This document shows positions 4,138-24,519 of a stretch of DNA of 63,644 nucleotides, piece after piece. This stretch comes from Devosia sp. 67-54 (GTDB taxonomy: Bacteria; Pseudomonadota; Alphaproteobacteria; Rhizobiales; Devosiaceae). The notes beneath the pieces were generated by a model. It had not been told where the DNA came from. It did no database searches and was given only the letters and a program-made list of their open reading frames with translations. A program made the translations under genes and the position numbers. The stretch's first letter is position 1. Every line of letters begins with the position of its first letter. The stretch is taken from positions 325,468 to 389,111 of the forward strand of contig NZ_MKVA01000002.1 of the NCBI RefSeq assembly GCF_001899075.1. The letters are read 5' to 3'.

Positions 4138-4959
4138 ATGCCAGACAGTTTCGAGCACGCCCGGTTCGCGGGCAAGGTCGCCGTCGTCACCGGTGCGGCG
4201 CAGGGGATCGGCGAGGCCGTGGCGCGGCTGCTGGCGGCGCGCGGCGCCGCGGGCCTGCTGCTGACCGACCGCAATGCCGACAAGGGCCGGGCGGTGGCCG
4301 GCGCGCTCGCGGCGGCCGGCACGCCGGCCGAGTTCGTCGCCGCCGAGCTCGACGACATGGCGCAGGTGCAGGCGATCGTACCGGCGGCGGAGGCGCGGTT
4401 TGGCCGGGTCGACGTGCTGGTCAACTGCGCCGGCCTCACCGACCGCGGCACGGTGCGCGACACCACGCCCGAGCTCTGGGACCGGATGTTCGCCGTCAAT
4501 GTGCGGGCGCCGTTCTTCCTGATGCAGGCGGCGCTGGCGGTGATGGAGCGGCAGGGCATCGAGGGGGCGATGGTCAACATCATCTCGATCAACGCGCATG
4601 GCGGCACCAGCTTTCTCACCCCCTACAGCGCCAGCAAGGGGGCGCTCTCGACGCTGACCAGGAATTTCGCGCATTCGGTCAGCAACCGGCGCATCAAGGT
4701 CAACGGCCTCAACATCGGCTGGGTCGACACGCCCGGCGAGCACACGACGCTCAAGCGCTTCCACAACATGCCCGACGACTGGCTGCAGACGGCGGAAAAA
4801 AGCCGGCCCTGGGGCCGGCTGATGAAGCCCGACGAGGTGGCGCGGGCGGTGGCGTATCTGGCGAGCGACGAGTCCGGGCTGATGACCGGCTCGATCATCG
4901 ATTTCGACCAGGTGGTGCAGGGCCCGAACGAGCAGATCGGCCCAGCTATGCGGAAGTAG
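4138..4959 (+). CDS. SDR-family oxidoreductase
   Basis: A 273-residue classical short-chain dehydrogenase/reductase. The Rossmann motif TGAAQGIGEAVA sits near residue 20, 'LVNCAG' at about 95, and the catalytic 'YSASKGAL' (Tyr/Lys) near 163 with the preceding Ser in 'NIISINAHGG'. The substrate is not deducible. The C-terminus 'GSIIDFDQVVQG' is where sugar- and polyol-type SDRs end. The start is ATG 4138 with GAGG 8 bp upstream; reading further upstream gives only low-quality sequence. Confidence 0.88.
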   Translation: MPDSFEHARFAGKVAVVTGAAQGIGEAVARLLAARGAAGLLLTDRNADKGRAVAGALAAAGTPAEFVAAELDDMAQVQAIVPAAEARFGRVDVLVNCAGLTDRGTVRDTTPELWDRMFAVNVRAPFFLMQAALAVMERQGIEGAMVNIISINAHGGTSFLTPYSASKGALSTLTRNFAHSVSNRRIKVNGLNIGWVDTPGEHTTLKRFHNMPDDWLQTAEKSRPWGRLMKPDEVARAVAYLASDESGLMTGSIIDFDQVVQGPNEQIGPAMRK

Positions 4960-9744: not shown

Positions 9745-10812
9745 TCACCCCCACCAGAAGATGGTGGCGATGATGATGTAGAGGCCGATCAGCGCCGCGC
9801 CGTCGACCACATCGGCGCGGCCGTCCACGGTCACCACCGTGACCACGAGCACCGACAGGAAGAGCGCTGCGGCGAGTATCGGCGGGATCACCAGCGTGAA
9901 CGGCGTGCCGCCGATGGCGAAGCTGACGAGGATCAGGATGGGGATCAGCGCCACGGCGACCTGCAGGGCGCCGTTGAGCACGACGCTGAGCGCCAGGTCG
10001 GCCTTGCCCTCGGCCGCCAGCCGGATGCCGACGACATTCTCGACGGCGTTGCCGGCGATGGCGACGATGACGAGACCGGCGAAGGCCTGGTTGATCCCGA
10101 GCGTCTGCATTGCCGGCTGGAGCGCGTCGACGAACCAGTCCGAGACCAGCGCTGCCGCGATACCGCACGCGATCAGCACACCGGCCGCAAGGAGGAGCGG
10201 CCAGGCACCGTCCCGCCGATGCGCCTTGGCACTTACCGTCCGTTGTCCGTGGGTGAGCACGGTCCAGGTCTGGACCGCGAAGACGAGCAGCAGAACGATG
10301 GCGCAGACCACCGCCAGGGGCTGCTCATGCGCGCCGGCCGGAAGATGCAGCTCGTCGGCGAGCGTCGGCAGCACCAGGGCGCAGACCGCCAGGAGGAGCA
10401 GGGTTGCGATCATCCGTGGCGCCTGGTCCTCGAATCTCAGCACGCCGTGCCTGGCGCCGCCCATGACGAAGGCGAGACCCAGTACGAGAAGCGCGTTGAC
10501 GAGGATCGAGCCGATCAGCGAGGTCTGGACTACGACGACGAGACCCGCCCGGAGCGCGAAGATGGCGACGAAGAGCTCGGGCAAATTGCCGACGATCGAC
10601 TGCACGATGCCGGTTGCCGCCGGCCCGAGATAGACCCCGAGCTGATCGGTCGCCTCGCCGATCACATAGGCGATGCCGGCCAGTGCCAGGGCGCAGACGA
10701 CAAAACTCGGTATTGCCTCGACACCCAGCACGTGCAGCACCGCGGCGAGCACGACCAGGACGGCCGATGCTGCCATGGCCAGCAGGGCGCTGCGTTCGAC
10801 CGTTGCGAGCAT
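9745..10812 (-). CDS. Ca2+/H+ antiporter-like protein (CaCA superfamily, CAX/ChaA type)
   Basis: A 355-residue membrane protein of about 11 helices. It carries two internal repeats with the CaCA signature: 'GNLPELFVAIFALRAG' near residue 75 and 'GNAVENVVGIRLAAEG' near 275, the alpha-repeats whose Glu residues bind the cation. A role in Ca2+ (or Na+/K+) extrusion in exchange for protons is inferred. The start ATG 10812 (MLATVERS) has GGGGAG 9 bp upstream; a longer in-frame start at 10878 would add 22 residues without a ribosome site. Confidence 0.87.
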   Translation of the reverse strand: MLATVERSALLAMAASAVLVVLAAVLHVLGVEAIPSFVVCALALAGIAYVIGEATDQLGVYLGPAATGIVQSIVGNLPELFVAIFALRAGLVVVVQTSLIGSILVNALLVLGLAFVMGGARHGVLRFEDQAPRMIATLLLLAVCALVLPTLADELHLPAGAHEQPLAVVCAIVLLLVFAVQTWTVLTHGQRTVSAKAHRRDGAWPLLLAAGVLIACGIAAALVSDWFVDALQPAMQTLGINQAFAGLVIVAIAGNAVENVVGIRLAAEGKADLALSVVLNGALQVAVALIPILILVSFAIGGTPFTLVIPPILAAALFLSVLVVTVVTVDGRADVVDGAALIGLYIIIATIFWWG

Positions 10813-11123
10813 TTGCTTTAGCTCCCCGTTGCAAATTCGATCTGCCGGAATGGTATCGACATTCGGCCGGCTGTGCATGTTGCCCCGACGATTGTCGATC
10901 GGGCCGAACCGTAGCGTGCTGAAGGGGCGGCATCTGGGGACGATGCAGCGGCCCTATGCGTTCCGTCATTGCCTATGGAGCGAGCGGCTGCCGTCAAATG
11001 CAGGTCAGCGCATGCCCTAGCGTCCCAACACCTTATCGGCCAAAGCCATGGCCGATGAGGATGGAGTCCCCCGACAACCCCTTGCGAATCAGGCCGAGGA
11101 CACGGTTCCTGCCGCCCTGCGGC
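10813..11123. other. intergenic region, about 310 bp
   Basis: Separates the antiporter start from the 3' end of the sugar-acid island (both on the minus strand). It should hold the antiporter promoter. I see no convincing -35/-10 pair and no conserved frame. An 8-bp near-palindrome around 11038-11058 (CGGCCAAAGCCATGGCCG) is the only visible dyad. Confidence 0.4.
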
Positions 11124-12278
11124 TCACCAGTTGGTCACCGAGCCGTCGCGGCGGGTCAGATGCGGGGCTTCCCAGAATTCGAAGCTTTGTTTCTTCAGGG
11201 CGTCTTCGTTGACCTCGATGCCGAGGCCGGGAGCGTCGGAGACGGGGTAGACGGCGCCGGCGAGGCGAGGCTGCACGGGGAAGAATACGGAATTGTCGAA
11301 GCCGAGCTTTTCGTATTGCGTGGTGCGGGTTTCGAGCCAGGCGAAATTGGGCACGGCGGCGGCGAAGTGCACGGTGGCGGCGGTGCAGACGGGGCCGAGC
11401 GGATTGTGCGGCATCATGTCGACGTAGTGCGCCTCGCTCCAGCCGGCGATCTTCATCGCCTCGGTCAGGCCGCCGACGTTGCACACATCGATGCGGTTGA
11501 ACTGGTGGATGCCGCGCTCGATGTAGGGCAGGAACTGCCATTTGCTGGCAAATTCCTCGCCGATGGCGAAGGGCACATCGGTCATGGTGCGCAGCGATTC
11601 GTAGGCTTCGGGGGTCTCGTCGCGGATCGGCTCCTCGAGGAAGTCGAGCGTGCCCGACGGCATCTTCTGGCAGAAGCTGGCGGTCTCGGCGACGCTCAGC
11701 CGGTGATGGTAGTCGATGCCCAGCACCACGTCGTCGCCCAGCGCCTCGCGCGCCTTGACCATCCATCTGGCGGTGGGGCCGATGGACACGCGCGGCTCGA
11801 ACACGTTGCCGGCGAGCTGGTGGTCGTGCGGGAAGAAGCGGATCACGGTCCAGCCGCCCTCCAGCAAGGCGCGGGCCTGGTCGAGCATGGCCTCGCCGGG
11901 CTGCGCCGAGGTCGAGGCGAAGGTGGGGATGTGGTCGCGCTGCTTGCCGCCGAGCAGCTCGTACACCGGCACGCCGAGCGCCTTTCCCTTGATGTCGTGG
12001 AGCGCGATGTCGAGCGCCGAGATGGCCGCCTGCAGCACGCGGCCGCCCTCGAAATACTGGCTGCGGTAGAGCTCCTGCCAGATCCGGCCGATCTGCATCG
12101 GGTCGCGGCCGACAAGAAATTCGCGGAAATGCTCGAGCGCGCCGGCGACCGCCTTCTCGCGGCCCGAGAGGCCGCTTTCGCCCCAGCCGAAGACACCCTC
12201 GTCGGTCTCGACCTTGACCAGCATCTGGTTACGGGTGCCCACCCATACCGGGTAGGGCCTGATGGCAGTGATTTTCAT
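11124..12278 (-). CDS. mandelate racemase/muconate lactonizing enzyme-family dehydratase (paralogue 1)
   Basis: A 384-residue enolase-superfamily protein. The N-terminal capping domain (1-120) is followed by the TIM barrel with metal ligands in 'LGIDYHH' (Asp), 'FLEEP' (Glu) and 'IGEEFASKW' (Glu). The general-base His lies in 'MMPHNPLGP' with its Asp partner in 'FNRIDVCNVGGL'. This pattern fits acid-sugar dehydratases such as galactonate or mannonate dehydratase; the exact substrate is not readable. Start ATG 12278. It is the last gene of the minus-strand transport operon, 19 bp after the ATPase. Confidence 0.9.
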   Translation of the reverse strand: MKITAIRPYPVWVGTRNQMLVKVETDEGVFGWGESGLSGREKAVAGALEHFREFLVGRDPMQIGRIWQELYRSQYFEGGRVLQAAISALDIALHDIKGKALGVPVYELLGGKQRDHIPTFASTSAQPGEAMLDQARALLEGGWTVIRFFPHDHQLAGNVFEPRVSIGPTARWMVKAREALGDDVVLGIDYHHRLSVAETASFCQKMPSGTLDFLEEPIRDETPEAYESLRTMTDVPFAIGEEFASKWQFLPYIERGIHQFNRIDVCNVGGLTEAMKIAGWSEAHYVDMMPHNPLGPVCTAATVHFAAAVPNFAWLETRTTQYEKLGFDNSVFFPVQPRLAGAVYPVSDAPGLGIEVNEDALKKQSFEFWEAPHLTRRDGSVTNW

Positions 12279-12297
12279 GTGGTGACGCCTTCGGGAC

Positions 12298-13395
12298 TCA
12301 GTTGCGCGGCAACGCCTGCTGCGTTTCGCCGTCGAACAGATGCAACTTGTCCTGGTCGAACTCAACCCATACCGGTTCGTCGGGCACGATGGGCACCTGC
12401 GGCTCGAGGCTGACGATGACGATATGGCCGCCCAGATACACCTGGGCGAAGGTGATGTCGCCGGTCGGCTCGACCGTATAGACCTTGCCGGCGACGGCGC
12501 CGGGCACGGCGCTCTTGTGCACCTTGAGGGTCGAATGGCGGGCCCCCAGGATCACCTTGGCGGTCGTCGCCCGGGCAACGCGGCGGGCGTTTTCGGGGCT
12601 GAGCGGCAGGCTCCAGCCGTCGGGGCTGCGAAGCGTCGCGGCGCCAGCGTCGGTGCCGGCCTCGAGCGGGATGAGGCTCATGGCGGGGGAGCCGACGAAG
12701 CCGGCAACGAAGGTGTTCTTGGGGTGCGCGAACACTTCGGCGGGCGAATCGTATTGCTGCAGCACGCCGCCGCTCATCACCGCCATCTTGTCGGCCATGG
12801 TGACGGCTTCGAGCTGGTCGTGCGTCACGTAGATCACGGTGGCCCTGAGGTCCTGGTGGAAGCGCTTGATCTCCGAGCGCATCTGCACGCGCAGCTTGGC
12901 GTCGAGGTTGCTGAGCGGCTCGTCCATCAGGAAGGCGCGCGGATCGCGCACCAGCGCCCGGCCGAGCGCCACGCGCTGCTGCTGGCCGCCCGACAGCTCG
13001 CGCGGGCGGCGCTCGAGCAGGTGGGTGATGTCGAGCACCTTGGCGGCCGCCAGCACCTTGGCTTCGATGTCGGCGCGCGGCAGCCGGCGCATCTGCAACG
13101 GGAAGGCGAGGTTCTTGAACACGGTCTTGTTGGGGTAGAGCGCGTAGTTCTGGAACACCATCGCAATGTCGCGATCCTTGGGATCGAGGTCGTTGACCAG
13201 CCGGTCGCCGATATAGATATCGCCGCCCGAAAGCGGAATCAGCCCGGCGACGAGGTTGAGCGTCGTGGTCTTGCCGCAGCCGGAGGGGCCGACCAGCGCC
13301 ACGAACTCGCCGTCGTCGATCTCGATCGAGACGTGGTCGACGGCATAGATGGGGCCGTATGTCTTGACGAGATCCCGAAGCACCACTTGGGCCAT
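12298..13395 (-). CDS. sugar ABC transporter ATP-binding protein (UgpC/MsmK type)
   Basis: A 365-residue ATPase of the CUT1 importer class. Walker A is GPSGCGKT (about 37-44), the signature LSGGQQQR near 135, Walker B 'AFLMDEPLSNLD' near 155, the switch His in 'YVTHDQLEA', and a C-terminal MalK-like regulatory (TOBE) domain ends 'FDQDKLHLFDGET'. It would drive uptake of a sugar or sugar acid through the two permeases encoded just upstream. The start is ATG 13395, 11 bp after the permease stop. Confidence 0.92.
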   Translation of the reverse strand: MAQVVLRDLVKTYGPIYAVDHVSIEIDDGEFVALVGPSGCGKTTTLNLVAGLIPLSGGDIYIGDRLVNDLDPKDRDIAMVFQNYALYPNKTVFKNLAFPLQMRRLPRADIEAKVLAAAKVLDITHLLERRPRELSGGQQQRVALGRALVRDPRAFLMDEPLSNLDAKLRVQMRSEIKRFHQDLRATVIYVTHDQLEAVTMADKMAVMSGGVLQQYDSPAEVFAHPKNTFVAGFVGSPAMSLIPLEAGTDAGAATLRSPDGWSLPLSPENARRVARATTAKVILGARHSTLKVHKSAVPGAVAGKVYTVEPTGDITFAQVYLGGHIVIVSLEPQVPIVPDEPVWVEFDQDKLHLFDGETQQALPRN

Positions 13396-13406
13396 TGTGC
13401 AACCTT

Positions 13407-14297
13407 CTAGTGTTTGACGGCGCCTTCGGTGAGGGCACGCACGAAATATCGCTGGAGGACGAGGAAGAGAACGACGACCGGCACGCTCATCATGAAGCTT
13501 GCCGCCATGAGCCCGGGAAAGTCGGTGGTGTTCTCGGAAAAGAAGCGCTGGATGCCGACCGGCAAAGTGAGCTGGTCGTTCCTGGTGAGGAAGGTGTAGG
13601 CGTAGATGTATTCGTTCCAGGCGCCGATGAAGGAGTAGATCGCGGTGGCGATGATGCCCGGCATCGACAGCGGCATCACGATCACCAGGAAGGCGCGGAA
13701 GCGCGTGGCGCCGTCGATGCGCGCCGCCTGCTCGAGCTGGATTGGAATGTTGTCGTAAAAGCCCTTGAGCAGCCAGATCGCCAGCGGCAGGCCGAAGGTC
13801 ATGTAGGTGAGGATCAGCGAGCCGTGCGTGTTCACCAGGCCGAGGAAGCGCATCAGGATGAAGAGCGGCACGAGGAAGATGACCGCCGGGAACATGTTGC
13901 GCAGCAGCACGGAAAAGAACAGGAACCGGCGTCCGGGGAAGTGGAAGCGCGAAAACGCATAGGCGGCCGGCACCGCGACCGCCACGCTCAGCACCGTGGT
14001 GACCGACGACACGAAGAGGCTGTTCCAGAAGAACCGCAGGAAGTCCTGGCCGACGCTGTTCTGCGGATCGAGCAGCTTCTGGTAGCTGGCGAGGGTCGGC
14101 TCCGACGGCCACCATTGCGGCGGGAACTGCATCGCCGCGAAGCCGGATTTGATCGAGGTCAGCAGCATCCAGATCATGGGCACCGCGGTGTAGAGCAGCA
14201 TCAGCACGAGGAAGCCGCGGCCGGCCCAGCGCCAGCCGTCGATCGGCTTGCGGCGGCGCGGCCGGGCGGCGGCCGGGGTGTCGGCGATCGCGCTCAT
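13407..14297 (-). CDS. sugar ABC transporter permease (MalG type)
   Basis: A 296-residue protein with six helices after a short basic N-terminus. The EAA loop 'LEQAARIDGATRFRAFLVIV' (about 190-210) docks on the ATPase. It overlaps the upstream permease gene by 4 bp (ATGA), which supports translational coupling. In the CUT1 family this is the second permease of a heterodimeric pore in the inner membrane. Confidence 0.93.
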   Translation of the reverse strand: MSAIADTPAAARPRRRKPIDGWRWAGRGFLVLMLLYTAVPMIWMLLTSIKSGFAAMQFPPQWWPSEPTLASYQKLLDPQNSVGQDFLRFFWNSLFVSSVTTVLSVAVAVPAAYAFSRFHFPGRRFLFFSVLLRNMFPAVIFLVPLFILMRFLGLVNTHGSLILTYMTFGLPLAIWLLKGFYDNIPIQLEQAARIDGATRFRAFLVIVMPLSMPGIIATAIYSFIGAWNEYIYAYTFLTRNDQLTLPVGIQRFFSENTTDFPGLMAASFMMSVPVVVLFLVLQRYFVRALTEGAVKH

Positions 14298-15253
14298 CCC
14301 TCGGCCTCCTTGCGTTCGCCGCGGCTGAGCGCGCGGACGTAGAAATAGCCGAGCGTCATCAGGATGATGAACAGCAGGACCGAATAGGCGGCGGCTACGC
14401 CCCAGCGCTGCCGGCCGAAAGCGAGCTCGTAGATGTGGGTGATCCAGATATGCGAGGCATTGGACGGGCCGCCGCCGGTCATGATCCAGGGGATGATGAA
14501 GGAATTGAAGTTGGCCACGGCCAGCAGCAGCACGGTGACGGTCGACACGCTGCGCAGATGCGGGAAGGTGACGTGCCAGAAGCGCTGCCAGGCGGAGGCG
14601 CCGTCGACCTGCGCGGCGCGCAGCAGCTGATCGGGCACCGTCTGCAGGCCGGCCATCAGCATGATCATGGCGAAGGGGAATTCGCGCCAGACATTGACCA
14701 CGATGAGCGAGGGCAGCACGGTGTTGACGCTGTCGATGAAATTGGGCGGCCGGCTCAGGAGGCCGAGCTCCACCAGCACCGCGCCGATCACCCCGAAATC
14801 GGAATGGTAGATCCACTTCCAGATGTAGGACGCGGCGACTGCGCTGATGACCCAGGGAATGATCAGGATGGCGCGCAGCACGCCGCGGCCGATGAAATCG
14901 CGATGCAAGGCGAGCGCCGAGCCGAGGCCGAACACGAACGACACCACGGTGGAGGCGAGCGTCCAGATGATGGTGTTCAGCGTCACGCGCCAGAACACCT
15001 CGCTGGTGAGGATCGCCGTGTAGTTCTCGAGGCCGATGAAGACCTTGTCCTTGAGCTGCAGGCCGGGCGGGGTTTTGAAGAAGGACAGGTCGATCGTGTA
15101 GTAGATCGGGTAGGCGATGACGATGAGCATCACCACCAGCGCCGGCAGCACGTAGAGATAGTCCGTCCGATTGATCCAGGCCTGCCGCAGCACTCCGGAC
15201 CGCGCGGCCGGGGTTCGGCGCGGAGCGCCGGCCTCTCCTGTTACCGTGGTCAT
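14294..15253 (-). CDS. sugar ABC transporter permease (MalF/UgpA type)
   Basis: A 319-residue inner-membrane permease. Its EAA motif is 'LLRAAQVDGASAWQRFWHV' near residue 215, and the C-terminus faces the cytoplasm. It forms the transport channel with the downstream MalG-type protein. The solute-binding protein gene ends 79 bp upstream of its start, so the order is SBP, permease, permease, ATPase, dehydratase. Confidence 0.93.
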   Translation of the reverse strand: MTTVTGEAGAPRRTPAARSGVLRQAWINRTDYLYVLPALVVMLIVIAYPIYYTIDLSFFKTPPGLQLKDKVFIGLENYTAILTSEVFWRVTLNTIIWTLASTVVSFVFGLGSALALHRDFIGRGVLRAILIIPWVISAVAASYIWKWIYHSDFGVIGAVLVELGLLSRPPNFIDSVNTVLPSLIVVNVWREFPFAMIMLMAGLQTVPDQLLRAAQVDGASAWQRFWHVTFPHLRSVSTVTVLLLAVANFNSFIIPWIMTGGGPSNASHIWITHIYELAFGRQRWGVAAAYSVLLFIILMTLGYFYVRALSRGERKEAEG

Positions 15254-15332
15254 CGTCGCGCCGCCCCAGTCGTTTCAGGATCGGAAGCCAGCAGCGCCGA
15301 AGCGCCGCCGGCCGGGAGAGTCGCCGCTGGCT

Positions 15333-16817
15333 CTAGAGCCCGCCTCCGCTCATCAGGTCCTTGACCTTCTTGGCCGCGTCGTCCGCCGCCTGGTCCACCG
15401 TCATGGCGCCGGTCAGGGCGTTCTGCAGCATGTCCGGGACGATGATGTTCATGATCTCGGGCGATTGCGGCAGGGCCGGGAACGGGATGCCGTAGGGCAG
15501 CATCGAGGTGGTGACGTCGAGGAACTTCGTCTTTTCCAGGCGCTCCTTCATCAGCGTGGTGAGGAAGCCGTTGAGGTTGCCCGGATTGGAGCCGACATAG
15601 GCCATCTTGAGCGACCATTCCGGGCTCGTCCACATGCAGATCAGCGCCTTGGCCGCCGGCTCGTCCACCTTGCCGCCCTCGACATATTCGGGCTTGAGGA
15701 TGTGGATGTTGGAGCCGCCGAAGACCACGGCGCGCTTGCCGTCCGGACCGGTCGGGATCAGGCCGTAGCGCATGTTGTCGATGACGGTCTGCGCCTTGGC
15801 GGTGTCGGTTCCCGTCGTCTTCTTCAGCAGGTCCTGCATCACGTTGTAGTCGGACGGATGCGAGATCATCATGCCGAGCTGGCCGGCAAGGAACAGCGGC
15901 TGGTTGTCCGCCTGCTGGTTGGTGAGGGCCGAGACCGGCACCGATTTGTCGCGGACATACATGTCGTACGACGCCTGCAGGGCCTGCTTGCTCTGCGGGC
16001 TGTCGAGCTCGACGTTCTGGTAGGTCGGGTTGGCGCTCGCTTCGTCGAACACGCCGCCGCCATAGGCCCAGAGCTGCGGCATGAAGCGGTAGGGCGTGTT
16101 GCCGGCGTTCTTGCGGGCCACCAGGCCGTAGCCGGCAATGCCGAGCTTGTCGTGGATCTGCTTGGAGTATTTGACGACGTCGTCCCAGGTTGCCGGCGGC
16201 TTGTCCGGGTCGAGGCCGGCGCGCTTGAAGATGTCGGCGTTCCAGATGAACGCCATGGTCTCGTTGTTGGTGGGAATGCCGTAGCTGACGCCCTGCCAGG
16301 TGACGGCCTTCATGGCGCCGGGCCAGAAGTCCTCGGTCGAATAACCCACGTCCTCGGGCTTCAGCGGCTGCAGATAGCCCTTCGCGGCGAATTCGGTGCC
16401 GCCCAGGATCTGCAGGCGGATGGCCATCGGCGCGGCATTGCCCAGGAGCGCGGTGCGGAACTTGTCGAGCAGATCGTTATAGGTGATGCCCTGCTCTTCG
16501 AGATCGATGTTGGGATAGGTCTTGCGGAAGGTCTCGAAGAATTCCTTGTAGTACTGCCGCAGGACGTCGGGATCGCCTTCGAACACGCCCTGGTACCAGA
16601 AGGTCAGGTGCCCCTTGTAGTCGAGCGGGGTGACCTTGGCGCAGTCGGCAGCGGTGTCGAAATCCTTGGTGCCGGCGATCGATTTCACATAGTCCGGCGA
16701 CCATTTGCTCAGATCGACCGGCGGCGCCGCCAATGCCGACGTCGACATCGCCGACGCCAGGAATGCAGAGGCGACCGCACCGCGCAACACGGCGGCGCCG
16801 AGTTTCAAACTCGTCAT
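15333..16817 (-). CDS. extracellular solute-binding protein (family 1, sugar type)
   Basis: A 494-residue periplasmic protein with a Sec signal peptide (about 1-30, ending 'STSALAAPP'). It has the alternating lobes of family-1 sugar binders, e.g. 'WYQGVFEGDP' and 'YGIPTNNETMAFIWNADIF'. It is about 60-80 residues longer than most family members, mainly from an N-terminal extension between the signal and the first beta strand. As first gene of the minus-strand operon it should define substrate specificity. The ligand is unknown, but the adjoining dehydratases suggest a sugar acid or a precursor of one. Confidence 0.92.
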   Translation of the reverse strand: MTSLKLGAAVLRGAVASAFLASAMSTSALAAPPVDLSKWSPDYVKSIAGTKDFDTAADCAKVTPLDYKGHLTFWYQGVFEGDPDVLRQYYKEFFETFRKTYPNIDLEEQGITYNDLLDKFRTALLGNAAPMAIRLQILGGTEFAAKGYLQPLKPEDVGYSTEDFWPGAMKAVTWQGVSYGIPTNNETMAFIWNADIFKRAGLDPDKPPATWDDVVKYSKQIHDKLGIAGYGLVARKNAGNTPYRFMPQLWAYGGGVFDEASANPTYQNVELDSPQSKQALQASYDMYVRDKSVPVSALTNQQADNQPLFLAGQLGMMISHPSDYNVMQDLLKKTTGTDTAKAQTVIDNMRYGLIPTGPDGKRAVVFGGSNIHILKPEYVEGGKVDEPAAKALICMWTSPEWSLKMAYVGSNPGNLNGFLTTLMKERLEKTKFLDVTTSMLPYGIPFPALPQSPEIMNIIVPDMLQNALTGAMTVDQAADDAAKKVKDLMSGGGL

Positions 16818-16956
16818 TGAATCCTCCAGATTCTCCCATTCCGCCCATGCGAGGGCATGAGCGGTCTCTGATCGGAGGGGTGTCTTATCGTTCTTGTGTA
16901 TCCCCCCGCTCGGCTTGTACGGTTTCAGATCATGGATTGCGTGTCAACGTGAATGG

Positions 16957-16989
16957 ATCGTACATTGTTCAATGTGAGCAATGTATGAT
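16957..16989. promoter_or_regulatory. candidate GntR operator between the divergent catabolic operons
   Basis: Inverted repeat ATCGTACATTG (16957-16967) and CAATGTATGAT (16979-16989) with 10 of 11 pairs matching and an 11-bp spacer. A second perfect dyad, ACATTG-TT-CAATGT (16962-16975), is nested inside. It lies between the solute-binding-protein start (16817) and the GntR start (17027), where one regulator could control both directions. Confidence 0.6.
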
Positions 16990-17026
16990 AGCACACCGAT
17001 GGTGTCATCGGCTTGGGGAGCGTCGC

Positions 17027-17740
17027 TTGGCGAAGACCAGCGAGTTCAGGATTTCGCCGCCAGCCGGCCTCGAGGAGATCGACGTCTCGAGTCAGCGGGC
17101 GCTGTCGCTGTACGAGATCATTCGCGACGACATCATTTCGGGGCGGCTGAAGCCGAACGAACGGCTGGTGGTCGCCGATCTGGCCGAGCAGCTCGGGACC
17201 TCGACCAATCCGGTGCGCGAAGCGCTGCAATTGCTGCGCGGCGAGGGCTTCGTGATCTTCTCGCCCAATCGCGGCGCGCGCGTGCGCCCCATCGACCAGG
17301 ATTTCGTGCGCAACATCTACGAGATCAGCGCCCTGATCGAGCCGGCGCTGACGCGCTGGTTCGTGGGTATGGCGACCGACGCCGACATTGCCGAGCTGGA
17401 GCGGATCGAGCGGCTGATCGAGCAGAACAATTTCGTGGATCCCGTCCTGCACAGCGGGTTGGACGTGCAGTTCCACACCGTCATGTATCAGCGCCACTAC
17501 AACCGGCACGCCGCCGAAATCTGGTGGAAGCATCGCCAGGTGCTGCGGGCGGTCAACCAGCGCTTCAACTACACGGTGGCGCGGCGTGGCCAGGTGATCC
17601 GCGATCACCGCGAGCTGATCGGGCTGGTCAAGGCCGGCGACGCCGAGCAGGCGGCAGCGGTGGTCGCCCGGCACGTGGAAGGCTCGGGCCGGCATCTGCT
17701 CGAGCTGATGCGCGCCTACGACGCCGCCAAGGCCGGGTAG
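17027..17740 (+). CDS. GntR-family transcriptional regulator (FCD/FadR subfamily)
   Basis: A 237-residue regulator. The winged helix runs about 22-90, with 'LYEIIRDDIISGRLKPNERL' and the recognition segment 'LAEQLGTSTNPVREALQLL'. An all-helical FCD effector domain follows from about 100, with His-rich positions ('HSGLDVQFHTVMY', 'HRELIGLVKAGD') typical of the metal/ligand pocket. TTG 17027 is chosen as start because GGGGAG lies 6 bp upstream; in-frame ATG 16985 falls inside the operator and has no ribosome site. It is the likely local switch for the transporter and dehydratase operons, with a sugar acid as inducer. Confidence 0.88.
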   Translation: MAKTSEFRISPPAGLEEIDVSSQRALSLYEIIRDDIISGRLKPNERLVVADLAEQLGTSTNPVREALQLLRGEGFVIFSPNRGARVRPIDQDFVRNIYEISALIEPALTRWFVGMATDADIAELERIERLIEQNNFVDPVLHSGLDVQFHTVMYQRHYNRHAAEIWWKHRQVLRAVNQRFNYTVARRGQVIRDHRELIGLVKAGDAEQAAAVVARHVEGSGRHLLELMRAYDAAKAG

Positions 17741-17788
17741 AGTTCCGTTCTATCGGTGGCCGCAAGAGTTCATGGAAAGGCAAGAGCA

Positions 17789-18952
17789 ATGAAGATCACC
17801 GGTGTCAAACCGTGGCTAATCAAATCGGCCGCCTCGTATTGGGGCGAGTTCCTGTTCATCGAGATCACGACGGACGAAGGCGTCAGCGGCTGGGGCGAGA
17901 TCACCACCACCACCAAGCTCGCCAACCGCGCCCTGTGCGCGATGCTGCGGCAGATCGGCTCGTCGCTGGTGGGCGAGGATCCGGCAAAGATCGAATATCT
18001 CTGGCACAAGACCTTCCGCAGCTACACCTATATGGGCAGCCGCGGCGCGGCGGTCGAATGCGTCAGCGCCATCGACATCGCGCTGTGGGATATCCGCGGC
18101 AAGGTGCTGGGCAAGCCGATCTACGAACTGCTGGGCGGTGCGGTGCGCGACGAGATCGCGCTCTACACCCATCCCGACCAGCGCAAATTCACCAGCAAGG
18201 AGGGTGTCGTCAACGAGATCCGCGACATCGTCAGATCCGGGCACACGGCGCTGAAGTTCGACCCCTACGAGTACCAGGGCGAAATCGTCGACGGGCGGGC
18301 GCGCGAACAGCGCAACGGCTATCTCGACGGCAGCATGACGCGCAAGGACGAGCGCGCGGCGGCGGAACTGACGGCCCTGATCCGCGAGACGACCGGCCCC
18401 GACATCGAAATCCTGATCGACGCGCATGGGCGTTTCGACGTGCCGACCGCGATCCGACTCTGCCGCAGCCTCGAAGAGGCGGGGGACATCGACTGGTTCG
18501 AGGAGCCCTGTCCGCCGGAAAGCGTCAATGCGCTCAAGCAGGTGCGCGAGAAGGTCAGCGCGCCGATCTCGTGGGGGGAACGCGGCCATACCAAATGGGA
18601 CTTCGTGCCGATCCTCGAGAACAAGCTCGCCGACTACATCATGCCGGACGTGACCTGGACCGGCGGCATCACCGAACTCAAGAAGATCTCGGCCCTGTGC
18701 GAGGCCCACTACATTCCGGTGTCGCCGCACGACGCGGCCGGCCCGATCAACGTCGTCGCCGGCGCGCAGGTGATGATGACGGTGCCCAACTTCTACAAGC
18801 TCGAAACGTCGGAGTGGAACCTCAACAAATACAACGATCTGATCGACACGCCGCTCGACAACTCCAACGGCAGCCTGAAGCTCCCCAACAAGCCCGGACT
18901 CGGCTACGAGATGAACCGGGACTATCTCGAAGCGAACGCCATCGACGTTTGA
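17789..18952 (+). CDS. mandelate racemase/muconate lactonizing enzyme-family dehydratase (paralogue 2)
   Basis: A 387-residue enolase-superfamily enzyme starting MKITGVKPW. Barrel motifs: '[10 protein letters not shown]' (second strand), Asp in 'ILIDAHGRF', Glu in 'WFEEPCPPE', Glu in '[10 protein letters not shown]', Asp in '[11 protein letters not shown]' and the base His in 'VSPHDAAGP'. All three metal ligands and the His-Asp dyad are kept, so it should be active. This pattern fits a galactonate-type acid-sugar dehydratase. Start ATG 17789 follows AAAGG by 8 bp and comes 48 bp after the GntR gene, so the two are probably co-transcribed. Confidence 0.9.
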
Positions 18953-19016
18953 CCGGGACGAACCCGATCGGGCGGCAACGGGCCGCCGACGCCAGGAAAA
19001 CCACAGGGAGCATGTC

Positions 19017-20375
19017 ATGGCCAAGGCGGGTCGCGCCGACGAAGCCCTCAACCGGGTCAACACCAGGTCGCGGCCGTCCGAGCTTCGCATCACCGACATG
19101 CGGGTGGCCGAAATTGTCGGGGCGCCGTTCACCTCGGCGCTGCTGAAGATCTACACCAACCAGGGCATCGTGGGCCTGGGCGAGGTGCGCGACGGCGCCA
19201 GCGCCACCTTCGCGCTGATGCTGAAGAGCCGGCTGCTCGGCGAAAATCCCTGCGACATCGACCGGCTGTTCCGCCGCATCAGGCAGTTCGGCGGCCACGG
19301 CCGGCAGGGCGGGGGCGTATCGGCGGTCGAGATCGCGCTGTGGGATCTCGCCGGCAAGGCCTATGGCGTGCCGATCTACCAGATGCTGGGCGGCCGCTTC
19401 CGCGAGAAGGTGCGCATCTATTGCGACACCGACGCCGAAAAGCCGAGCGGCACGGAGACCGGCAAGCGGCTCAAGGAACGCATGGAGCTCGGCTTCACCT
19501 TCCTCAAGATGGATCTGGGGCTGATGCAGATCGCCGACGTGCCGGGCGCGGTGGTGGCGCCCGCCGGCTCGCTCGAAGGCTATCGCGTCCACCCTGGCCG
19601 CGGCCCGGTGAAGACGCTCGAGGACCGGCGCGCCCGCAACGCCGTCTACGACATCCACAATGTGCGCCACCCGTTCAGCGGGCTGCACTTCACCGACAAG
19701 GGCATCGACCTGTTGGAGCAGTACATCCACGAGGTGCGCGAGGTGGTGGGCTACGAGATCCCGCTTGCCATCGACCATGTCGGCCACATCTCGCTGCAGA
19801 ACGGCATTCGCCTGGCGCGGCGGATCGAGAAATACGTGCCGGCCTGGCTCGAGGACGTGATCCCCTGGCAGTACACCGAGCAGTACCGGCAACTGCAGCA
19901 GGCGACCACGGTGCCGATCTGCACCGGCGAGGACATCTATCTCAAGGAGGGTTTCGCGCCGCTGCTCGAGGCCGGCATCTCGGTGATCCATCCGGACCTG
20001 CTGACCGCCGGCGGCATCCTCGAAACCAAGAAGATCGGCGACATGGCGCAGGAGCAGGGCGTCGCCATGGCCATCCACATGGCCGAGAGCCCGATCGCGG
20101 CGATGGCCGCGGCGCATGTCGCCATCGCCACCGAGAATTTCATGGCGCTCGAATATCACTCCGTCGACGTGCCGTGGTGGGACGACATCGTCACCGGCCT
20201 GCCCAGGCCGCTGGTCAAGGACGGCTTCATCACCGTGCCCGACAAGCCCGGACTCGGCATCGACGACGTGGTCGACGAGGTGATCGGCCAGCATCTGCAG
20301 CCGGGCGTCAGCGGCATCTGGCAGCCGACCGACCGCTGGGACGACGAATACTCCTGGGATCGCACCTGGAGCTGA
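19017..20375 (+). CDS. mandelate racemase/muconate lactonizing enzyme-family protein with long barrel insertion (paralogue 3)
   Basis: A 452-residue enolase-superfamily enzyme, some 50-70 residues longer than its three neighbours. Extra length is an N-terminal arm of about 25 residues and an insertion between the second- and third-strand motifs ('FLKMDLG' and 'LAIDHVGH'), containing '[16 protein letters not shown]'. Metal ligands are present (Asp in IDH, Glu in 'WLEDVIPW', Glu in 'CTGEDIY'), with the Asp/His dyad in '[12 protein letters not shown]' and 'AIHMAESP'. Substrate unknown. GGGAG precedes the ATG by 6 bp, and the next dehydratase follows 16 bp downstream. Confidence 0.88.
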
Positions 20376-20391
20376 AACGAAAGACAACAGC

Positions 20392-21594
20392 ATGAAGATC
20401 ACCGATCTGCGCTGCGCCGTCATCGGCCGGCATCCCATCGTCCGCATCGTCACCGACGAGGGCCTCTACGGCCTGGGCGAGGTGGAATTCACCAAGACTT
20501 ACCTCAAGCCGTGGGTGCTGCATTTCCGCGACGCGCTGGTGGGCGAGGACCCCACCGACGTCGAGCGGGTGATGCTGAAGATCCGCCAGCGCGGCTCGTT
20601 CAAGCCCTATGGCGCGGCGGTGAGCGCCATCGAGCATGCGCTGTGGGACATCGCCGGCAAGGCGGCCAACGTGCCGGCCTACAAGCTGCTCGGCGGCAAG
20701 GTGCGCGACAAGGTGCGCTGCTACAATGGCAGCCTGCGCAAGAAGCGCACCGGCGACCGGCCGGAGGACTATGCCGCCGACGTCAAGTGGATGAAGGAGC
20801 TGCCCGAGAACTTCTTCATGATCAAGCAGGGAATCTCGTTCCACTCGAACATGAAGGACACCATCGACGATTTCCACTACGGCGTGGTGCAGACCAAATC
20901 GGGCTATCACGGCGCGATGGACCAGGGGGTGATCTCCGAGCACGGCTTCAACCACATGCTCGACTGCGTCATCGCCATGAAGGAGGTGCTGGGCGACACG
21001 GTGTCGCTGGCGCTCGATTGCGGGCCGGGCTGGATGCTGCCCGACGCCATCAAATTCGCCCGCGCGGTCGAAAAGTACAACATCATGTGGCTCGAGGACA
21101 TGCTCACCGGCGACTACGTGCCGTGGGTCAACCCGCAGGCCTATCGCGAGCTGACGCTGTCGACCTCGACGCCGATCCATACCGGCGAGCAGATCTACAG
21201 CCGGCACAATTTCAAGGAGCTGATCGAGACGCAGGCGGTGCGCGTCATCGGCCCCGACCCGGCCGATATCGGCGGCATCGCTGAGCTCAAATGGGTGGCC
21301 GAGCACGCCTACATGCATTCGATCCTGATGGCGCCGCACGGCACCGCCAACGGCCTGCTCGGCCTCGGCGCGCTGATCAATGTGTGCGCCACGCTGCCGG
21401 CCAACTACATCGCGTTCGAATATCCCAGCGCGTCCGACCCGTGGTGGGAGGAGATCGTCACCGGCCTGCCGTCCGGCCGCATCGTCAACGAGTCGATGAT
21501 CGACCTGCTCCCCGGCCCCGGCCTCGGCCTCGACATCGACGCCAAGGCCGCCAAACGCTATCTGCGCGAGGAAGATGCGGGGTTCTTCGACTAG
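20392..21594 (+). CDS. mandelate racemase/muconate lactonizing enzyme-family dehydratase (paralogue 4)
   Basis: A 400-residue enolase-superfamily enzyme starting MKITDLRCAV. Barrel motifs are 'FFMIKQGISFH', Asp in 'LALDCGPGW', Glu in 'WLEDMLTGDY', Glu in 'HTGEQIYS', Asp in 'VIGPDPADIGGI' and His in 'LMAPHGTANG'. It differs from paralogues 1-3 at most pocket residues, so it probably acts on another sugar acid or on the opposite C2 configuration. It is the last gene of the plus-strand operon; the GIY-YIG gene follows after 33 bp. Confidence 0.9.
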   Translation: MKITDLRCAVIGRHPIVRIVTDEGLYGLGEVEFTKTYLKPWVLHFRDALVGEDPTDVERVMLKIRQRGSFKPYGAAVSAIEHALWDIAGKAANVPAYKLLGGKVRDKVRCYNGSLRKKRTGDRPEDYAADVKWMKELPENFFMIKQGISFHSNMKDTIDDFHYGVVQTKSGYHGAMDQGVISEHGFNHMLDCVIAMKEVLGDTVSLALDCGPGWMLPDAIKFARAVEKYNIMWLEDMLTGDYVPWVNPQAYRELTLSTSTPIHTGEQIYSRHNFKELIETQAVRVIGPDPADIGGIAELKWVAEHAYMHSILMAPHGTANGLLGLGALINVCATLPANYIAFEYPSASDPWWEEIVTGLPSGRIVNESMIDLLPGPGLGLDIDAKAAKRYLREEDAGFFD

Positions 21595-21627
21595 GGCGGC
21601 GGCGCAGCCCGGTGCTAAGCTCGGGCC

Positions 21628-21927
21628 ATGGGGCAGTTCGGAAGCTATGCCGTCTATATCCTCGCCAGCCGCAAATATGGTGCGCTCTATATCGGCGTCA
21701 CCGGCAATCTGCTCGGTCGCGTGATCACGCATCGCGAGGAACTGCTCCCCGACTTCACCTCGCGCTACCACATCCACAACCTCGTCCATTTCGAGTTCTA
21801 CGATCTGCCGCGAGATGCGATCGCACGCGAAAAACGGCTCAAGAAGTGGCGGCGCGAGTGGAAGATCGCTCTGATCGAGACGACCAATCCCGATTGGCAC
21901 GATCTGTTCGACGAGATCGTGGGGTAA
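21628..21927 (+). CDS. GIY-YIG nuclease-domain protein (UPF0213-like)
   Basis: A 99-residue single-domain protein. The catalytic layout is complete: 'YAVYILASRKYGALYIGVT' (GIY/YIG equivalents), Arg in 'LLGRVITHREE' and Glu in 'AIAREKRLKKWRREWK'. Small stand-alone GIY-YIG proteins of this type are common and mostly uncharacterised; DNA cleavage or repair is the usual guess. It follows the dehydratase operon by 33 bp and is followed at once by an array of palindromic repeats, a frequent arrangement for these proteins in alphaproteobacteria, though a functional link is not shown. Confidence 0.85.
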   Translation: MGQFGSYAVYILASRKYGALYIGVTGNLLGRVITHREELLPDFTSRYHIHNLVHFEFYDLPRDAIAREKRLKKWRREWKIALIETTNPDWHDLFDEIVG

Positions 21928-21949
21928 GCATCCACGATATCCCCCTCCC

Positions 21950-22690
21950 ACCGGGTCATCCCCGCGAAAGCGGGGACCTCCGTTTGCTGGAGGTGCAGTC
22001 GGCGGTGCGGGGTGAGCCGGGCGACGCCCGGCCCGGTCCACCGGGGCCGTGCCTCGCTCCGCCAACGGAGGTTCCCGCTTGCGCGGGGATGACCCGGTGG
22101 GGGAGGGACGAGGGAGGGGAATTGGCAGCGAAGGTCCGCCACGTTCTCAACGCGGCATAGCGTGATTGGACGCAAAAGCGACATCTGCCGTCCCACCTCC
22201 GTGTCATCTCCACGAAATTCGTCCTTCCATCCACCGGGTCATCCCCGCCAAGGTGGGGACCTCTGTTTGCCGCGGGTGCAGTCGGCAATGCGAGGACGAG
22301 CCGGGCGACGCCCGGCCTGGTCCACCGGGGCCGTACCCTCGCTCCGCCAACGGAGGTTCCCGCTTGCGCGGGAATGACCCGGTGGGGAGGGACAAGGGAA
22401 TGACCCGGTGGGGGAGGGGACAAGGGAGTGGAATTGGCAGTGAGGTCCGCCACGTTCTCAACGCGGCATAGCGTTATGGACGCGGAAGCGACATCTGCCG
22501 CCCGCCTCCGTGTCATCTCCACGAAATTCGTCCTTCCATCCACCGGGTCATCCCCGCGCAAGCGGGACCTCCGTTTGCCGCGGATGCAGTCGGCAATGCG
22601 GGGGTGAGCCGGGCGACGCCCGGCCCGATCCACCGGGGCCATCTCCCGCGCTGCCAACAGAGGTTCCCGCTTGCGCGGGAATGACCCGGT
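21950..22690. repeat. tandem array of three long palindromic repeats
   Basis: Three copies of a palindromic unit of about 150 bp lie at 21950-22098, 22233-22383 and 22542-22690. They are separated by two copies of a spacer of about 134 bp (containing TCCGCCACGTTCTCAACGCG), giving an A-B-A-B-A layout with a period of about 283 bp. The second spacer is longer by a 26-bp local duplication of its GAATGACCCGGTGG end. Each unit begins ACCGGGTCATCCCCGC and ends GCGGGGATGACCCGGT or GCGGGAATGACCCGGT. It has paired inner arms (CCTCCGTTTGC near the left, CAACGGAGG near the right) and a central GCCGGGCGACGCCCGGC hairpin. No coding frame is credible across it. Confidence 0.9.
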
Positions 22691-22711
22691 GCGCGTGGTG
22701 ACGATTGGCGG

Positions 22712-23596
22712 CTACGGCAGGGGCTGGCCGCCGATGCGGGTGACGGCTTCGGCGCCGGCGGCGATGCCGGCTTTGAGGCAGGCGTCGACCGGCTTGCCGG
22801 CGAGTTCGCTGGCGATGAAGGCGGCGGCGAAGGCGTCGCCGGCGCCGGTGGTGTCGATGACGTCGCTGGGCGGCGCCGGCAGCGACAATTGCACGCCGGT
22901 GCGGCCGCCGATGGCGGCGCCGGCGACGCCGCGCTTGATCACCACGCGGCCATAGAAGCGGCCCAGCGTCTGCATCTGCAGATTGAGGTCGACCGAACCG
23001 GTCAGCTCCAGCGCCTCGTCGAGGTTGGCAAAGATGGTGCCCACCCCTTGCGTCCATTTGAGGAAGGCTTCGGCGCCGACTTCGCGCAGAAACCCCACCG
23101 AGGCGGGGTCGACCGCGGTGGCGACGTTGCGCTCGCGCGCCGCCTTGAGCAAGGCGATCACGGCGCCGCGCGGCCCGGCGGTGAAGAACGAATAGCCCGA
23201 CACCATCAGCAGCTGGACGTCGTCGAGCAGGCTCTGCGGCAGGTCGGCGGCGCAAAGCTTCAGATTGGCGCCGCGGTCGGTGAGGAAGCTGCGCTCGCCG
23301 TCGGCGTCGACGATCGAGATCAGCACGCCCGAGGGCGCCTCGGCGTCGCCGACGAGCAGCGGCTCGACGCCGCGCGAGCGGAAATAGGCGATGTTGGCGT
23401 CGAGCTCGGCGGCGGCGACGCGCGCCACGAACTTCACCGGCACCCCGATCGAGCCCAGCCAGACGGCCTGGTTGGCGCCCGAGCCGCCGGGGCGCGAGCG
23501 GATGGTGGCGCGGCGGTCGGAGCCGCGCACCATCGGCCCCTCCGGCATCACGATGACGTCGGTGATGACGTCGCCGACGACGAGGACGCCGCTCAT
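22712..23596 (-). CDS. psuK: pseudouridine kinase (PfkB family)
   Basis: A 294-residue ribokinase-fold kinase. The N-terminal 'GSDRRATIRSRPGGSGANQA' carries the PfkB signature 1 Gly-Gly, and the C-terminal 'DTTGAGDAFAAAFIA' holds the anion-hole/catalytic Asp. By itself it is only a PfkB sugar or nucleoside kinase. The specific call rests on its 4-bp overlap with psuG: in the known pathway PsuK phosphorylates pseudouridine and PsuG splits the C-C bond. No dedicated transporter gene lies beside it. Confidence 0.85.
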   Translation of the reverse strand: MSGVLVVGDVITDVIVMPEGPMVRGSDRRATIRSRPGGSGANQAVWLGSIGVPVKFVARVAAAELDANIAYFRSRGVEPLLVGDAEAPSGVLISIVDADGERSFLTDRGANLKLCAADLPQSLLDDVQLLMVSGYSFFTAGPRGAVIALLKAARERNVATAVDPASVGFLREVGAEAFLKWTQGVGTIFANLDEALELTGSVDLNLQMQTLGRFYGRVVIKRGVAGAAIGGRTGVQLSLPAPPSDVIDTTGAGDAFAAAFIASELAGKPVDACLKAGIAAGAEAVTRIGGQPLP

Positions 23597-24519
23597 CGCG
23601 CCATCCGCCGGCTCAGCGCCACGGCGATGGCGGCGGCGACGCGGGCGTTGTTTTCGACCAGCGCGATGTTGGAGACGAGGCTCCTGCCGCCGGTCAGCTC
23701 GAAGATGCGCTTGAGCAGGAACGGCGTCGTCGCCTTGCCGGCGATGCCGGCCGCGCCGGCGTCGGCGAGAGCCTGCTCGATGGTCGCGGCGATCATTTGC
23801 GGGTCGAGCGCGTCGGCCGCGGGGATCGGGTTGGCGACCAGCACGCCGCCCATGCCCAGCCGGAACTGCGTGTCGAGCAGCGCCGCCACCGCCTCTGGCG
23901 TGTCGAGCCGCTGGTCGACGGGATGGCCGCTGCCGCGCGTCCAGAAGGCGGGAAACTCGTCGGTGCCGTAGCCGACCACCGGCACGCCCTTGGTTTCGAG
24001 CACTTCCAGCGTCTTGGCGATGTCGAGGATGGCCTTGGCGCCGGCGCAGACCACCGCCACGGGCGTCCGGCTCAGTTCCTCGAGGTCGGCGGAGACGTCG
24101 AAGCTCAGCTCGGCGCCGCGATGCACCCCGCCGATGCCGCCGGTGGCGAACAGCTGGATGCCGGCGAACTCGGCCGCCTGCATGGTGGTGGCCACCGTGG
24201 TGCCGGCGATGGCGCCGGAATTGAGCAGCGCGGCGACGTCGCGGCGCGACGCCTTGGCCGCCGTAGCGCCGGTCTCGGCCAGGCGGCGGAGATCGGCGCC
24301 GGCGAGGCCGACCCGGAACGCTCCGTCCATGATGGCGATGGTGGCCGGGATGGCGCCGGCCGCCCTGACGATGGCCTCCACCCTGCCCGCCATTTCGAGG
24401 TTCTGCGGGTAGGGCATGCCGTGGGTGATGATGGTCGATTCGAGCGCGACCACCGGCCGGCCGTCGGCGAGCGCGTCGGCGATCTCGGGGCTGATCTTGA
24501 GCAGGTCGGAAAGGGGCAC
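23593..24519 (-). CDS. psuG: pseudouridine-5'-phosphate glycosidase
   Basis: A 308-residue protein, the family length. It cleaves pseudouridine 5'-phosphate to uracil and ribose 5-phosphate. Recognisable blocks include 'VVALESTIITHGMPYPQN' near the N-terminus (metal/phosphate site), 'TTVATTMQAAEFAGI', 'FATGGIGGVHRGAE' and 'VCAGAKAILDIAKTLEVLE' (with a catalytic Lys). The start is GTG at 24519, the only in-frame start before the conserved segment. It is first in a two-gene operon with psuK. Confidence 0.95.
   Translation of the reverse strand: MPLSDLLKISPEIADALADGRPVVALESTIITHGMPYPQNLEMAGRVEAIVRAAGAIPATIAIMDGAFRVGLAGADLRRLAETGATAAKASRRDVAALLNSGAIAGTTVATTMQAAEFAGIQLFATGGIGGVHRGAELSFDVSADLEELSRTPVAVVCAGAKAILDIAKTLEVLETKGVPVVGYGTDEFPAFWTRGSGHPVDQRLDTPEAVAALLDTQFRLGMGGVLVANPIPAADALDPQMIAATIEQALADAGAAGIAGKATTPFLLKRIFELTGGRSLVSNIALVENNARVAAAIAVALSRRMAR

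Follow-up and report, generated by a model that had tools for sequence, protein, structure and literature searches.

The 63,644-nucleotide (nt) stretch of Devosia sp. 67-54 analyzed here (the window; contig NZ_MKVA01000002.1, forward-strand positions 325,468 to 389,111) carries, at 11124-21594, a cassette of nine genes in two divergent halves: a minus-strand ATP-binding cassette (ABC) importer with one enolase-superfamily enzyme (E1), and a plus-strand regulator with three more such enzymes (E2-E4). Outward from the center, the minus half encodes the solute-binding protein, two permeases, the ATPase, and E1 as the last gene of the operon, whereas the plus half runs from the GntR/FCD regulator through E2 and E3 to E4. 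Intergenic gaps measure -4 to 79 nt inside each half, and the divergent gap 209 nt. The features are as follows.

11124-12278 (start at 12278), minus strand: E1, enolase-superfamily protein, nearest to galactonate dehydratase models (PF02746 and PF13378; NF010624, 276 bits against a cut-off of 311)
12298-13395, minus strand: ABC importer ATPase, MalK/UgpC type (ABC_tran and TOBE_2; UgpC subfamily, 419 bits against a cut-off of 432)
13407-14297, minus strand: ABC importer permease, MalG-like (BPD_transp_1; MalG model, 163 bits, below the cut-off of 261)
14294-15253, minus strand: ABC importer permease, MalF-like (BPD_transp_1, domain scan on 14294-15193)
15333-16817, minus strand: importer solute-binding protein, sugar-type (SBP_bac_1, 123 bits)
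16957-16989, no strand: candidate operator, an inverted repeat of ATCGTACATTG, an 11-nt center and CAATGTATGAT (10 of 11 arm positions complementary)
17027-17740, plus strand: GntR/FCD transcriptional regulator (GntR and FCD domains)
17789-18952, plus strand: E2, enolase-superfamily protein (PF02746 and PF13378)
19017-20375, plus strand: E3, enolase-superfamily protein with an extended N-terminus and an insertion, without the third-strand His (PF02746 and PF13378; alignment)
20392-21594, plus strand: E4, enolase-superfamily protein without the third-strand His (PF02746 and PF13378)

The importer is a complete sugar transporter of the CUT1 type, with a substrate-binding protein, two permeases, and a MalK-type ATPase, and the regulator has both domains that define the GntR/FCD group. 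The first-pass annotation, made from the sequence alone, had placed a complete ABC importer and a GntR/FCD regulator at this locus, and the domain matches agree. For the MalF-like permease, the median ortholog length of 319 amino acids fits a start at 15253, whereas start prediction favored 15193. The solute-binding protein is 83-91% identical across the 73 nine-gene loci described below. Its top-scoring solved relative, 4qrz, matched at residues 96-327, is not decisive for the substrate because it is named merely as a sugar-type binding protein.

All four enzymes score above the Pfam cut-offs for PF02746 and PF13378, the domains of the mandelate-racemase-type enolase superfamily. In an alignment with Escherichia coli DgoD, RspA, and RhmD, the columns of DgoD D183, E209, E235, D258, and H285 are kept in E1-E4; we take the first three residues to be the metal ligands at the ends of strands 3-5 and the last two to be the His-Asp dyad. 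These five positions are invariant in all aligned orthologs (77 of E1, 75 of E2, 78 of E3, and 80 of E4) and in the window copies. The column of DgoD H185, presumably the third-strand His that DgoD uses as an acid, contains His in E1 (78 of 78) and E2, Val or Ile in E3 (79 of 79), and Gly in E4 (81 of 81). That the four enzymes are near-redundant copies of one activity would fit their common superfamily, their overlapping best NCBIfam models, and their single locus. However, they are only 26-34% identical to one another, against 81-92% to their Rhizobium leguminosarum orthologs, from which all four have diverged under purifying selection (ratio of nonsynonymous to synonymous substitution rates, dN/dS, 0.08-0.15), and their H185-column residues differ; on these three grounds we rejected redundancy, to which we attach hardly any credence. 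The description of four mandelate-racemase-type proteins retaining three metal ligands and the dyad is thus borne out by the Pfam matches, the alignment, and the ortholog invariance. The findings fixed beforehand as able to overturn it did not appear: the ligands are kept, and neither the mutual identities nor the H185-position residues are those of a single enzyme type.

None of the four reaches the cut-off of an NCBIfam model. The D-galactonate dehydratase model NF010624 (cut-off 311 bits) gives 276 bits for E1, 238 for E2, 193 for E3, and 165 for E4, and the D-mannonate dehydratase (ManD) model NF043051 (cut-off 550 bits) gives 244, 192, 146, and 125 bits, respectively; by score we rejected them as ManD or DgoD equivalogs. 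An AlphaFold2 model of E4 built from 16 sequences (predicted local distance difference test, pLDDT, 82.3; predicted template modeling score, pTM, 0.85) has 2qq6 as its nearest solved fold, with a template modeling (TM) score of 0.81, and reaches 0.80 with the D-mannonate-bound ManD 4kpl; a single-sequence prediction of E3 was unusable (pLDDT 34). In the whole genome of the Devosia strain, 19 places are over the cut-off of the MR_MLE_C domain, 15 of them outside the E1-E4 cassette. A second cluster on its contig C6 (L127:5884-12386) has two enolase-superfamily genes beside ABC-transport and other sugar-type genes and by eye resembles a rhamnose/fucose-acid pathway.

To see how far the arrangement is conserved, the best 80 of 560 relatives of E4, mostly Rhizobium and Mesorhizobium by title, were compared, a gene being counted as present at no less than 55% identity over 40% of its length. 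All nine genes occur in one order and orientation in 73 of these 80 loci; the other seven comprise three Devosia loci without E2, three loci cut by contig ends, and one without the regulator. This recurrence, together with the dN/dS values of E1-E4, is more than chance. In a collection of plasmids, 96 records match E4 at an E value of 1e-40 or better, and 85 of them are from Rhizobium. A NIPSNAP-family gene lies between E3 and E4 in 24 of 77 loci (L023, L027, L035, and 21 others), mostly from Mesorhizobium. In 71 of 77 divergent regions, including that of the window, ATCRTACATTG or its reverse occurs as an arm of the repeat, whereas 50 rounds of simple shuffling gave a mean of 0.0; rhizobial loci preserve the right-hand arm less well. 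The 33-nt inverted repeat at 16957-16989 is a candidate operator.

The cassette has a regular partner that the window does not contain. A gene of the Aldolase/RraA family follows E1 in 76 of the 77 E1-bearing loci, although many of the fetched stretches include only part of it. L067 is the exception: there it lies 8.6 kb from E1, as seen in L156 (genome G018), taken from its length as the same contig. In R. leguminosarum and Microvirga ossetica this gene is annotated as 'ribonuclease activity regulator RraA'. In the window, E1 is adjoined instead by a Na/Ca-exchanger-family gene (9745-10812) and no RraA-family gene is found there, but the same genome has one RraA ortholog on contig C11, 81% identical to the R. 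leguminosarum gene, the other two matches being 38% and 27% identical. The C11 protein scores 117.5 bits with PF03737 (gathering threshold 24.5) and is over the cut-off of NF006093, an unnamed subfamily model, but falls under the cut-offs of HMG/CHA aldolase (NF006731, 124 against 179 bits) and of the RraA equivalogs. It is related to the HMG/CHA aldolase 3noj (E 7e-22), with which it shares an Arg-Asp pair in the alignment that we presume to be functional. Its opposite-strand neighbor has a match to Peripla_BP_3, a domain found in regulators of the LacI type. Among 19 genomes of the genus, E4 occurs in 18 and RraA in the same 18, with G007 lacking both.

These observations revise what had first been supposed about the later steps. 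The expectation that the pathway finishes outside the window is supported, as RraA, a kinase of the DgoK family, and two genes of the Eda family occur elsewhere in the genome. The idea that the cassette comes without a gene for any later step is not supported: in its relatives an RraA-family gene stands beside E1, and Devosia sp. 67-54 has that gene on another contig. The DgoK-family kinase is next to the Eda-family gene that scores below cut-off, the second Eda-family gene being over it; therefore, phosphorylative processing of 2-keto-3-deoxy acids would be possible too. What is mainly added to the first-pass annotation is the partner of the RraA family and the modular composition of the cassette.

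Within the genus, the composition of the cassette differs between genomes. Matches to E2 were found in 11 of the 19 genomes, several of which are drafts: E2 is part of the cassette in the window, G006 and G016 have it next to E4, and in eight it is on another contig or far away. Five of these eight remote places were fetched (L131-L135), and in all five E2 is accompanied by relatives of the binding protein and the GntR regulator and by a galactonate-dehydratase-type enzyme, whose L131 copy, at 318 bits, exceeds the galactonate dehydratase cut-off of 311; at L135 there are also E3 and genes of the importer. In 13 fetched loci, of which 12 belong to the genus, E1 is adjoined by a fifth gene of the enolase superfamily. 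One such enzyme, inside a genus cassette (L151:10813-12024), reaches 660 bits with the ManD model (cut-off 550), and 14 of the 19 genus genomes have an enzyme over that cut-off. Of the 18 genus genomes with E4, 8 have UxuA-family genes no more than 6 kb from E4 or RraA (a raw count), and such genes also lie near E4 relatives in L112, L113, L157, and L158. Outside the genus, M. ossetica has RraA and E2-E4 with a different superfamily member in the place of E1, and more distant relatives show three reduced units: an E4-like gene (61%) with RraA (63%) in Sinorhizobium mexicanum, an E3-like gene (44%) with RraA (63%) in Microvirga terrae, and an E2-like gene (68%) with an RraA-family gene of only 30% identity in Roseomonas.

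In close relatives, single enzymes are thus gained or lost while RraA stays constant, and parallel dehydratases would explain this better than an obligatory chain of serial steps, which argues for the parallel arrangement without proving it. A partly serial route would have E3 and/or E4 epimerize or isomerize an acid that E1 or E2 then dehydrates. Its attraction lies in the H185 column, where no aligned E3 or E4 ortholog has the His, and in K145 of E4, which directly follows strand 141-144 of the model, taken as the second barrel strand, with the Lys assignment varying between alignments; racemases of the enolase superfamily have a second-strand Lys. However, E2 is unmatched in 8 of the 19 genus genomes, 7 of which have both E4 and RraA (some being drafts less than 90% complete), and the reduced units pair RraA with few relatives. 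We therefore regard serial action as improbable. The initial view of four distinct, separately conserved enzymes of the acid-sugar dehydratase type, which would most simply act in parallel on several sugar acids, remains the one that the comparison favors.

Judging by the ManD, galactonate-dehydratase, and UxuA-family neighbors, the cassette would most likely act on hexonates such as mannonate or galactonate, and a uronate oligomer, which had been suggested at first, may be one option among several. Aldarates are a rival class, for which the RraA-family enzyme would act as a dehydratase/decarboxylase converting 2-keto-3-deoxy-hexarate to a semialdehyde in a route that leads to 2-oxoglutarate. 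HMG/CHA aldolase, to which the cassette RraA is related through 3noj, presumably acts on keto-diacids. In addition, the RraA-like FlDet of Flavobacterium is described, in the available text of its report, as a 2-keto-3-deoxy-D-glucarate dehydratase/decarboxylase (PMC8563752), an activity on 2-keto-3-deoxy-hexarate that would suit aldarates. By family and by that description, FlDet resembles the cassette partner in being an RraA-family protein that acts on a 2-keto-3-deoxy sugar acid, but it belongs to an alginate pathway (PMC8563752). On the other hand, the functionally anchored neighbors of the cassette are monoacid dehydratases (ManD and the galactonate dehydratase equivalog), and the talarate/galactarate and glucarate dehydratase models, where listed, fall far below cut-off on E1-E4, so that aldarates seem to us unlikely. 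A further proposal assigns pairs of UxuA-family and RraA-family genes not to sugar acids but to the degradation of ring-cleavage products derived from lignin. It was put forward for Paenibacillus sp. B2, and Agrobacterium sp. B1 was noted to have a similar pair (PMC12673573, available text). In that account, as far as the available text goes, the hydratase step is suggested from upregulation and gene position (PMC12673573), whereas the contents of the present cassette are of sugar type (the CUT1 importer and the ManD and galactonate dehydratase equivalogs), and we consider this role very unlikely here.

Taken together, the data suggest a regulated uptake-and-dehydration cassette in which parallel dehydratases for related sugar acids would feed one RraA-type enzyme, a reading to which we give about an even chance. 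The GntR/FCD protein would bind the inverted repeat at 16957-16989 and respond to an acid, and the ABC importer would take up a sugar acid, either free or as part of a saccharide. E1-E4 would each handle a different stereoisomer or chain length in parallel: the His-Asp dyad would abstract the C2 proton beside the Mg-bound carboxylate, and the 3-hydroxyl would leave to give a 2-keto-3-deoxy acid. One RraA-family enzyme, encoded here on another contig, would then cleave or further dehydrate this common type of product.

Several observations weigh against this interpretation. E1-E4 score under every NCBIfam cut-off against which they were listed, and E3 and E4, as they lack the third-strand His, may use another acid or carry out another reaction. 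As to the neighbors, the genome of the Devosia strain has no ManD match at an E value of 1e-100, and the UxuA-like proteins fall under the UxuA equivalog cut-offs. Since the best 80 of the 560 E4 relatives were taken, the sample leans to close relatives, and the co-occurrence test in the genus is weak because G007 alone lacks E4. No RraA gene was found in the fetched stretches of L112 (E4-like, 64%), L159 (62%), L137 (56%), L138 (52%), or L116 (E3-like, 35%), the rest of those genomes not having been searched. In the Devosia sp. 67-54 genome, the operator pattern has one exact site and two with two mismatches, none on the RraA contig, which counts against shared control there; common regulation of the cassette and this RraA gene is thus unsupported. 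Finally, a CUT1 importer suits an oligosaccharide better than a free acid, and the cassette has no glycosidase. If the importer took up disaccharide acids and one or more of E1-E4 expelled a 3-O-linked sugar instead of water, acting as an aldobionic-acid lyase, no glycosidase would be needed and the RraA-family enzyme would handle the resulting 2-keto-3-deoxy acid, but we see this as a long shot.

The separation of RraA from the cassette in this strain may have a historical explanation. Three quick trees were built without bootstrap, those of the binding protein and E4 from 16 of the 80 loci plus genus and other loci, and that of RraA from a selection; L145 in the E4 tree and L024 in the RraA tree have artefactually long branches, and the rows labeled rhizobial include the Devosia loci L063 and L086. 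The binding protein and E4 of the window fall among rhizobial sequences and others from outside the genus, separate from the majority of genus copies, whereas RraA of the same genome groups with 12 genus cassette copies (Shimodaira-Hasegawa-like approximate likelihood ratio test, SH-aLRT, 99). These trees suggest that a rhizobial-type cassette is combined with a genus-type RraA, and the simplest reading would be that the cassette was exchanged for a rhizobial-type one that arrived without RraA while the native RraA was retained.

The annotations inspected name the cassette genes by superfamily only. Among known systems, the E. coli dgo operon (DgoD, DgoK, DgoA, and DgoR) is alike in having an enolase-superfamily acid-sugar dehydratase with the same ligands and dyad and its own regulator alongside, DgoR being, we assume, of the GntR type. 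However, dgo combines one dehydratase with a symporter, whereas the cassette has four dehydratases and a CUT1 importer and lacks the kinase; and where dgo uses KDPGal aldolase, the relatives of the cassette have the RraA-family gene instead. The ManD subgroup belongs to the same superfamily, occurs over cut-off in genus cassettes, and is matched by the E4 model through 4kpl, but E1-E4 are not ManD by score. The nearest published idea found is the expansion of the superfamily (COG4948) in SAR202 bacteria, for which the available text proposes that many divergent paralogs serve parallel non-phosphorylative sugar-acid pathways (PMC10444878). In contrast to the 80 genes in a genome given there, the window has a compact cassette with one regulator and one RraA-family partner, and RraA occurs 0 times in the main text of that paper (PMC10444878). 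For natronoarchaeal mannan clusters, the legend to the cluster comparison names both manD and a gene of the RraA family; these clusters are archaeal and contain mannanases, and a multi-dehydratase importer cassette is not described in the available portion of the paper (PMC10963439). Searches of the open-licence literature that combined the superfamily with RraA, with rhizobia, or with the importer found no account of this cassette; PMC5789663, which they brought up, deals with a Burkholderia gene. The links of the cassette to an RraA-family enzyme and to ManD give a concrete list of candidate substrates and a candidate role for an enzyme family that is poorly understood. The cassette is conserved in many strains of Rhizobium and Mesorhizobium, with plasmids from nodule isolates among its carriers, and may therefore act on an acid that comes from plants or soil.

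Two features lie just downstream of E4. Immediately past a small gene with a GIY-YIG domain (21628-21927), units recurring at intervals of about 300 nt occupy 21948-22698 and contain long inverted repeats, with arms of up to 48 nt; no known RNA element was found at the gathering threshold in 10800-22800. Next to them, at 22712-24519 and outside the cassette, a PfkB-family kinase gene (22712-23596) adjoins an Indigoidine_A-family gene, the pair probably encoding a pseudouridine kinase and glycosidase. The first-pass annotation had stated that the window holds no keto-deoxy kinase or dehydrogenase; this is correct for the cassette, but the window as a whole contains this PfkB-family kinase, a short-chain dehydrogenase/reductase (4138-4959), and an aldo/keto reductase (44090-44896).

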